Origin: Mauremys mutica
Taxonomy: Eukaryota; Chordata; Testudines; Geoemydidae
DNA: 64,000 nt
Direction: 5' to 3'
Assembly (NCBI RefSeq): GCF_020497125.1
Contig: NC_059081.1
Coordinates: 13,629,105-13,693,104, forward strand
Under the pieces are notes generated by a model. That model made no database searches and had not been told where the DNA came from. It worked only from the letters and a program-made list of their open reading frames with translations. The position numbers and the translations under genes are program-made. Positions within the stretch are counted from its first letter, which is position 1. Each line of letters starts with the position of its first letter. Below are positions 13,716 through 14,570 of this stretch, in pieces.

Positions 13716-14570
13716 ATGGAGATGGAGCGCATAATCCAGCTGATCGTGGAAAGTCAGGAGCGGCAGCTGGCCGCCCAGCTGCAGCATCAGCAGCAGCAGC
13801 AGGCGACCCAGCGGGAGGACCAGCAACAAAGGGATGCAGCCCACCTCCAGCTGCAACAAGGCCTGCACACAGCCCAGCTGGAACAGCAGCAGCAGTTGCT
13901 GCAACAGCTGGGGGCCCAGCTGCAACAGCTGCTAGTCGCTCACCCTCGTCCCGCGGAGGGACCCGCCGGCGAGGGGTCAGGACCACCCCGGATGGCGGCC
14001 CCCCTCCGCTTAACCAAGATGGGCCCGGACGATGACCCCGAGGCCTTTCTAGTAACCTTCGAGCGGGTGGCCCTGGTCGCCGGCTGGGCCCGGGACCAGT
14101 GGGCCACGCTACTCGCCCCCTATTTAACCGGGGCGGCGCAGACGGCGTACCGAGGACTCCCTACGGAGGACGCCCGACATTATGATCGAGTAAAGGCCGC
14201 CATACTAGACGCGCTAGACGTCAGCCCGGAGACATACCGGCAGAGGTTCCGAAGCCAGGTGTACCCCACCGGAGCTCGGCCCCGCGTGGTCGCCCAGACG
14301 CTAAAAGAGAACTGCCGGCGGTGGCTCCAACCGGGCGAGCGGACGGCGGAGGAAGTTACGGAACAGGTCGTCCTCGAACAATTCGTTCACACCCTGCCGT
14401 CCCGGGGCAGGGCATGGGTCCTTCGTCACCGGCCCACGACTCTGGCCGAGGCCGTAAGCAGGATGGAGGATTTCCTAGCTGCTGAAACGGCGGTAGGACC
14501 CCCCTGCCACCCTCCTGGGGTCAGGACAGACACCCCACGGGGGGGAAAGGAAGGGGGAATCCCCCAGTGA
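13716..14570 (+). CDS. gag: Gag of the Gmr1-like element, SCAN-like capsid
   Basis: 284 codons, the structural protein that would form the element's particle. The start is the first ATG of the frame, about 70 bp after the PBS. Residues 1-75 are very Gln/Leu-rich and look coiled-coil (runs such as QHQQQQQ and LEQQQQLLQQL). Residues 92-169 resemble the N-terminal part of a retrotransposon capsid. Residues 170-257, from SPETYRQRFR to the MEDFLAAE stretch, have the helical pattern and key residues of a SCAN domain, including CRRWLQPGERTAEE and VLEQFVHTLP. Known: SCAN domains of amniote zinc-finger proteins were proposed to come from a Gmr1-like capsid. The zinc knuckle normally at the Gag C-terminus is missing here; it lies in the next frame, in pol. 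The frame ends at TGA 14568-14570, overlapping the pol frame by 74 bases. Confidence 0.88.
   Translation: MEMERIIQLIVESQERQLAAQLQHQQQQQATQREDQQQRDAAHLQLQQGLHTAQLEQQQQLLQQLGAQLQQLLVAHPRPAEGPAGEGSGPPRMAAPLRLTKMGPDDDPEAFLVTFERVALVAGWARDQWATLLAPYLTGAAQTAYRGLPTEDARHYDRVKAAILDALDVSPETYRQRFRSQVYPTGARPRVVAQTLKENCRRWLQPGERTAEEVTEQVVLEQFVHTLPSRGRAWVLRHRPTTLAEAVSRMEDFLAAETAVGPPCHPPGVRTDTPRGGKEGGIPQ
14497..14570 (+). other. Gag/pol frame overlap, candidate +1 frameshift zone
   Basis: Both frames are open across these 74 bases. Gag uses codon positions one base behind pol. The zone contains a run of seven G followed by AAA (14539-14548) and a run of five G (14553-14557). Either translation shifts here naturally or a 1-base change has split a longer frame. 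The sequence alone cannot decide. Confidence 0.5.

Follow-up and report, generated by a model that had tools for sequence, protein, structure and literature searches.

Anatomy of the element

The genome of the turtle Mauremys mutica contains, within a 64,000-nt stretch analyzed here (the window), a retrotransposon flanked by long terminal repeats (LTRs). Its gag open reading frame (ORF) encodes a protein, called the window Gag, in which one segment resembles the SCAN domain of host zinc-finger proteins. Almost certainly, the element is a young Gmr1-like Ty3/Gypsy retrotransposon of which this segment forms the C-terminal dimerization domain of the capsid (CA-CTD), and the segment resembles SCAN because SCAN is itself the Gmr1 CA-CTD. 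The features of the element are listed by window position and strand, with their basis in parentheses.

12000–12004, no strand: target site duplication GTCAC, left copy (flanking sequence)
12005–13625, +: 5′ LTR, 1621 bp, TG...CA ends (LTR comparison)
13627–13644, +: putative primer binding site, directly inside the 5′ LTR (position and sequence)
13716–14570, +: gag ORF, 284 aa (ORF list, Pfam, predicted helices)
14223–14486, +: SCAN domain, the capsid C-terminal domain (Pfam PF02023, PDB sequence matches, structural matches)
14497–14570, +: 74 nt shared by the gag frame and the open pol frame (sequence)
14713–18645, +: pol ORF, 1310 aa, open (ORF list, Pfam)
14746–14793, +: nucleocapsid CCHC zinc knuckle, encoded in the pol frame, CFGCGKRGHLQRDC (motif in sequence; PF00098 E=0.0015, 19.0 bits, below the cut-off of 20.8)
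14869–15117, +: protease region, LIDSG motif (PF00077 E=0.19, below its cut-off; motif in sequence)
15466–16518, +: integrase, with H2C2, rve core, and p58 C-terminal domain (PF17921 1.9e-21, PF00665 1.5e-12, PF22938 3.3e-12)
16876–17355, +: reverse transcriptase (PF00078 4.3e-34)
17623–17934, +: RNase H (PF17917 3.5e-37)
18042–18054, +: polypurine tract (sequence)
18055–19674, +: 3′ LTR, 1620 bp, TG...CA ends (LTR comparison)
19675–19679, no strand: target site duplication GTCAC, right copy (flanking sequence)

Near-identical LTRs, the target duplication, a putative primer binding site, and the polypurine tract mark the insertion as an LTR retrotransposon. In Pfam, the pol ORF matched in order the CCHC knuckle (just short of its cut-off), protease (weakly, with LIDSG, which we take to be the protease motif), integrase, reverse transcriptase, and RNase H. 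Two features are those of Gmr1-like elements: Gag carries a SCAN-like C-terminal half of CA, and Pfam coordinates place integrase upstream of reverse transcriptase, an order that, according to passages of PMC2582038 and PMC2774666, distinguishes Gmr1.

A SCAN domain in the capsid region of Gag

Multiple results support assignment of the Gag segment to SCAN. First, nucleotides 14223–14486, precisely the region singled out in the original prediction from the sequence alone, translate without a stop into 88 residues (Gag residues 170–257), which include the YRQRFR, CRRWLQP, and VLEQFVHTLP motifs quoted there; the last helix, also anticipated, contains RMEDFLAAE and is predicted to span residues 243–259. 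Second, in the profile search proposed as a check, the 88-residue segment matched Pfam PF02023 over model positions 1–85 of 90, scoring 91.6 bits where 27 are required (E=2.8e-26), which rules out chance resemblance, and the whole Gag matched with E=5.2e-25 (87.5 bits, cut-off 27 bits). Third, a PDB sequence search matched the segment to five solved SCAN domains, those of ZNF24 (E=1.1e-17), PEG3, and MZF1/ZNF42 in gap-free alignments and those of ZNF174 and ZSCAN10 with one gap each. Finally, a predicted model of CA alone gave structural matches to SCAN, with 43% identity between the segment and ZNF24 in the structural alignment. SCAN was absent from the 50 structural-match rows of the predicted full-length Gag model and present for the CA-alone model, and the top-ranked structure differed between these two models, in which single chains were predicted.

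The predicted layout of Gag consists of a long helix (residues 2–74), the N-terminal half of CA (about 98–169), and the SCAN domain as the C-terminal half. Pfam found no C2H2 match in the gag ORF, which is therefore not a host-type SCAN zinc-finger gene, in which SCAN is fused to C2H2 fingers.

Gag relatives and related systems

A protein search with the window Gag returned 123 relatives; among the best 120, 103 came from turtles and 6 from bony fishes, and 118 carried PF02023. The closest, P0002 from Chrysemys picta, was 74% identical over 100% of the query. When five fish Gags were used as queries, PF02023 was present in 112 of the best 120 of 193 matches, many of which also had pol domains, and SCAN occupied the same position in bony-fish Gags as in the window Gag. 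A scan of viral contigs with the CA alignment gave 9 pattern matches and no relative.

The window element resembles Gmr1-like Ty3/Gypsy elements (Gmr1 of Gadus morhua and its frog and fish relatives) in the order protease, integrase, reverse transcriptase, RNase H and in having SCAN in Gag. It may differ from them in its turtle host, its 1.62-kb LTRs with a minisatellite, its pol ORF that runs into the 3′ LTR, and the separate frames that gag and the zinc knuckle occupy in the window copy. Likeness to the SCANs of the mammalian zinc-finger proteins ZNF24, ZNF174, MZF1, PEG3, and ZSCAN10 extends over nearly the whole length of the domain, but the window SCAN is the second half of a mobile element's capsid, whereas the mammalian domain is fused to zinc fingers. 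Capsid C-terminal domains of retroviruses and Arc showed 9% and 17% sequence identity to the window Gag, respectively, in the structural-match rows.

Direction of transfer

Transfer in the opposite direction, with the element capturing SCAN from a host zinc-finger gene, was one of two outcomes named as fatal to the original prediction, and we found no sign of it. The first tree contained 47 SCAN segments (84 columns), including 15 mammalian host SCANs, and the second contained 53 rows. Host SCANs were sought with the ZNF24 SCAN as seed (best 120 of 815 matches, the named ones from mammals); those in the trees were mammalian only. The mammalian hosts formed one clade in the first tree (98/98, n=15) and in the second (99/96). 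The window Gag lay apart from them, grouping in the first tree with P0002, P0005, and P0057, the last a chimeric turtle model (99/92), among rows from turtles or grouped with them, and in the second with P0002 and P0005 (99/89). P0005 and P0002 were also nearest by path in a tree of the CA N-terminal half, which was poorly supported (1/29 branches starred). Because the hosts form a separate clade, both CA halves share the same nearest relatives, and SCAN sits at the same place in bony-fish Gags, these sequences disfavor host-to-element capture. We regard it as extremely improbable, although SCAN zinc-finger genes are present in mammals and lizards, as stated in part of PMC4592553, and one of the constraint tests below leaves some room for it.

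Forcing the hosts to group with the window Gag alone was rejected in the first set (p-AU, approximately unbiased test, 0.002). Two results are weaker: the same constraint was borderline in the second set (0.053) and was not rejected once the divergent fish branch was removed (0.107), and grouping of the hosts with the turtle rows was not rejected in either set (p 0.09 in the first, where the turtle rows include the chimeric models P0024 and P0057, and 0.13 in the second). Grouping of the hosts with the window subclade was also not rejected (p 0.18, first set). In the best trees the turtle rows did not come together, though a single turtle clade was not rejected (p 0.23 in the first set; 0.34 in the second, or 0.43 without the fish branch). 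That divergent branch (P0109, P0213, and P0110, with P0221 in the first tree) was sister to the hosts (99/95 and 99/94), with a long-branch warning in the second tree. Given the unrejected host groupings and this warning, we do not claim that the turtle lineage is the one closest to the donor; as far as these segments indicate, the trees do not single it out. The original prediction was correct in calling the element Gmr1-type, as judged by integrase before reverse transcriptase and SCAN in Gag, but the trees do not show that the element is particularly close to the donor.

Domesticated and chimeric SCAN genes

Many turtle relatives of the window Gag bear the annotation "SCAN domain-containing" or "SCAN box" protein, as might be expected if the gag ORF were a domesticated SCAN gene rather than the Gag of a mobile element. 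We give this explanation virtually no weight. The ORF is enclosed by LTRs that are 99.7% identical and bordered by a target duplication, and the coding regions for integrase, reverse transcriptase, and RNase H lie downstream of it. These surroundings refute domestication for the window copy.

Four of the best 120 relatives (P0024, P0057, P0086, and P0114) are predicted turtle proteins that join Gmr1 CA or SCAN to C2H2 fingers, in P0114 with KRAB in addition; P0024 and P0086, which share the Gag portion, could be a single gene. By eye, P0057 seems to have a finger-like fragment before the Gag piece and fingers after it, the pattern expected of an insertion in a zinc-finger gene. Judged from their sequences, the turtle SCAN-zinc-finger models are likely to be annotation joins. 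It is very doubtful that two things hold together, namely that turtle Gmr1 capsids assemble by SCAN-type domain-swapped dimers and that turtle genomes are still capturing the capsid domain into zinc-finger genes; if both were true, SCAN capture would be a recurring process, observable at present. Elephant and manatee RFX2-like proteins with a SCAN domain (P0307, P0308, and P0316) may represent a host-gene fusion or an annotation join, and P0307 groups with ZNF232 in the second tree (83/72).

Gag and pol reading frames

The original description of the element as near-intact holds for the LTRs, the target duplication, and the open pol ORF, but gag stops at 14570, with the CCHC knuckle (14746–14793) in the pol frame, open from 14497. 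The copy can fairly be called near-intact, though not intact. The simplest reading is a break of frame in the linker between CA and nucleocapsid of the window copy. Alternatively, a programmed +1 frameshift might join gag and pol, which would make the copy functional as it stands; we consider this unlikely. We compared frames in 76 SCAN relatives with at least 60 aa after SCAN, which were gene models and not raw ORFs. SCAN and a CCHC motif were in one frame in 16 of the 76, including P0071 from Chrysemys, which argues against a programmed frameshift, as do the P0002 tail, which scored 145 in the window pol frame versus 74 in the gag frame, and the tails of P0092, P0096, and P0099, which fit the third frame best. 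Consistent with a programmed frameshift, by contrast, are the 74-nt overlap of the frames and the tails of P0005, P0014, P0043, and P0048, which fit the window gag frame better than the pol frame. In a separate comparison, the main match of P0005 also continues in the gag frame, and so does that of P0002, which conflicts with the tail scores of P0002 and leaves this relative ambiguous.

Age of the insertion

The insertion is recent. The two LTRs differ by 4 substitutions and 1 indel, and three of these five differences sit within 11 bp of the repeat region. From a divergence of 0.25% (4 substitutions in ~1620 sites), the average reptile mutation rate of 1.17e-8 per generation given in a section of PMC9995274, and an assumed generation time of 10 to 25 years, a rough age of 1 to 3 million years would follow for the insertion.

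Proposed function and significance

The SCAN domain most likely pairs Gag subunits in the capsid shell. The N-terminal half of CA would build the capsid lattice, the SCAN half would join neighboring Gag subunits as a dimer, as homology to CA-CTDs and SCAN dimers suggests, and the Gag shell would coat the element RNA for reverse transcription. According to published work, the zinc-finger genes of hosts acquired SCAN in the distant past from a capsid of Gmr1-like type; they would have retained it as a module for pairing. For the window Gag, dimerization, capsid assembly, and any interaction with SCAN proteins of the host are properties that we infer.

The central idea, that SCAN originated from a Gmr1-like capsid, has been in print since 2011. 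Excerpts of PMC3424704, PMC3406341, and PMC4592553 present a Gmr1-like Gag capsid as the source or homologue of SCAN, and part of PMC11011659 describes SCAN as a proposed retrotransposon gag derivative, with Emerson and Thomas 2011 among the works it cites. Passages of the same paper report 32 metaviral CA ORFs in painted turtle, from models that missed human SCAN proteins. Portions of other papers place SCAN in more than 50% of the Gmr elements of frogs (PMC4131045) and SCAN proteins in the gag position, between the 5′ LTR and pol, in five zebrafish elements (PMC8672886). For turtles, we found no report of SCAN Gags in the open-licence literature searched, judged partly by title.

What is added here is a young turtle copy and its anatomy, which leave the accepted origin of SCAN unchanged. 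The window element is a roughly dated, nearly complete example of the element type thought to be the source of SCAN genes, and its turtle and bony-fish Gag relatives could help to root the SCAN tree. Two published guesses would become testable in one animal: that the capsid pairs as SCAN does, and that host SCAN proteins still bind it, the latter in line with the suggestion in parts of PMC4592553 and PMC3406341 that they may target Gmr1-like capsids.

Pol extension and LTR repeats

The pol ORF stays open up to and into the 3′ LTR, where its final 591 nt, counting the stop, occupy 18055–18645, equivalent to 12005–12595 in the 5′ LTR. This extension of 196 codons is rich in proline and glutamate; neither it nor eight other window ORFs had a Pfam match above a cut-off. 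Both LTRs contain the same minisatellite, 5.3 copies of an 87-bp unit (a dimer of ~44 bp), at 13042–13511 and 19091–19560. In addition, a 38-bp stretch at the start of the 5′ LTR (12008–12045) is repeated near its end (13564–13601) with 89% identity, and likewise in the 3′ LTR.
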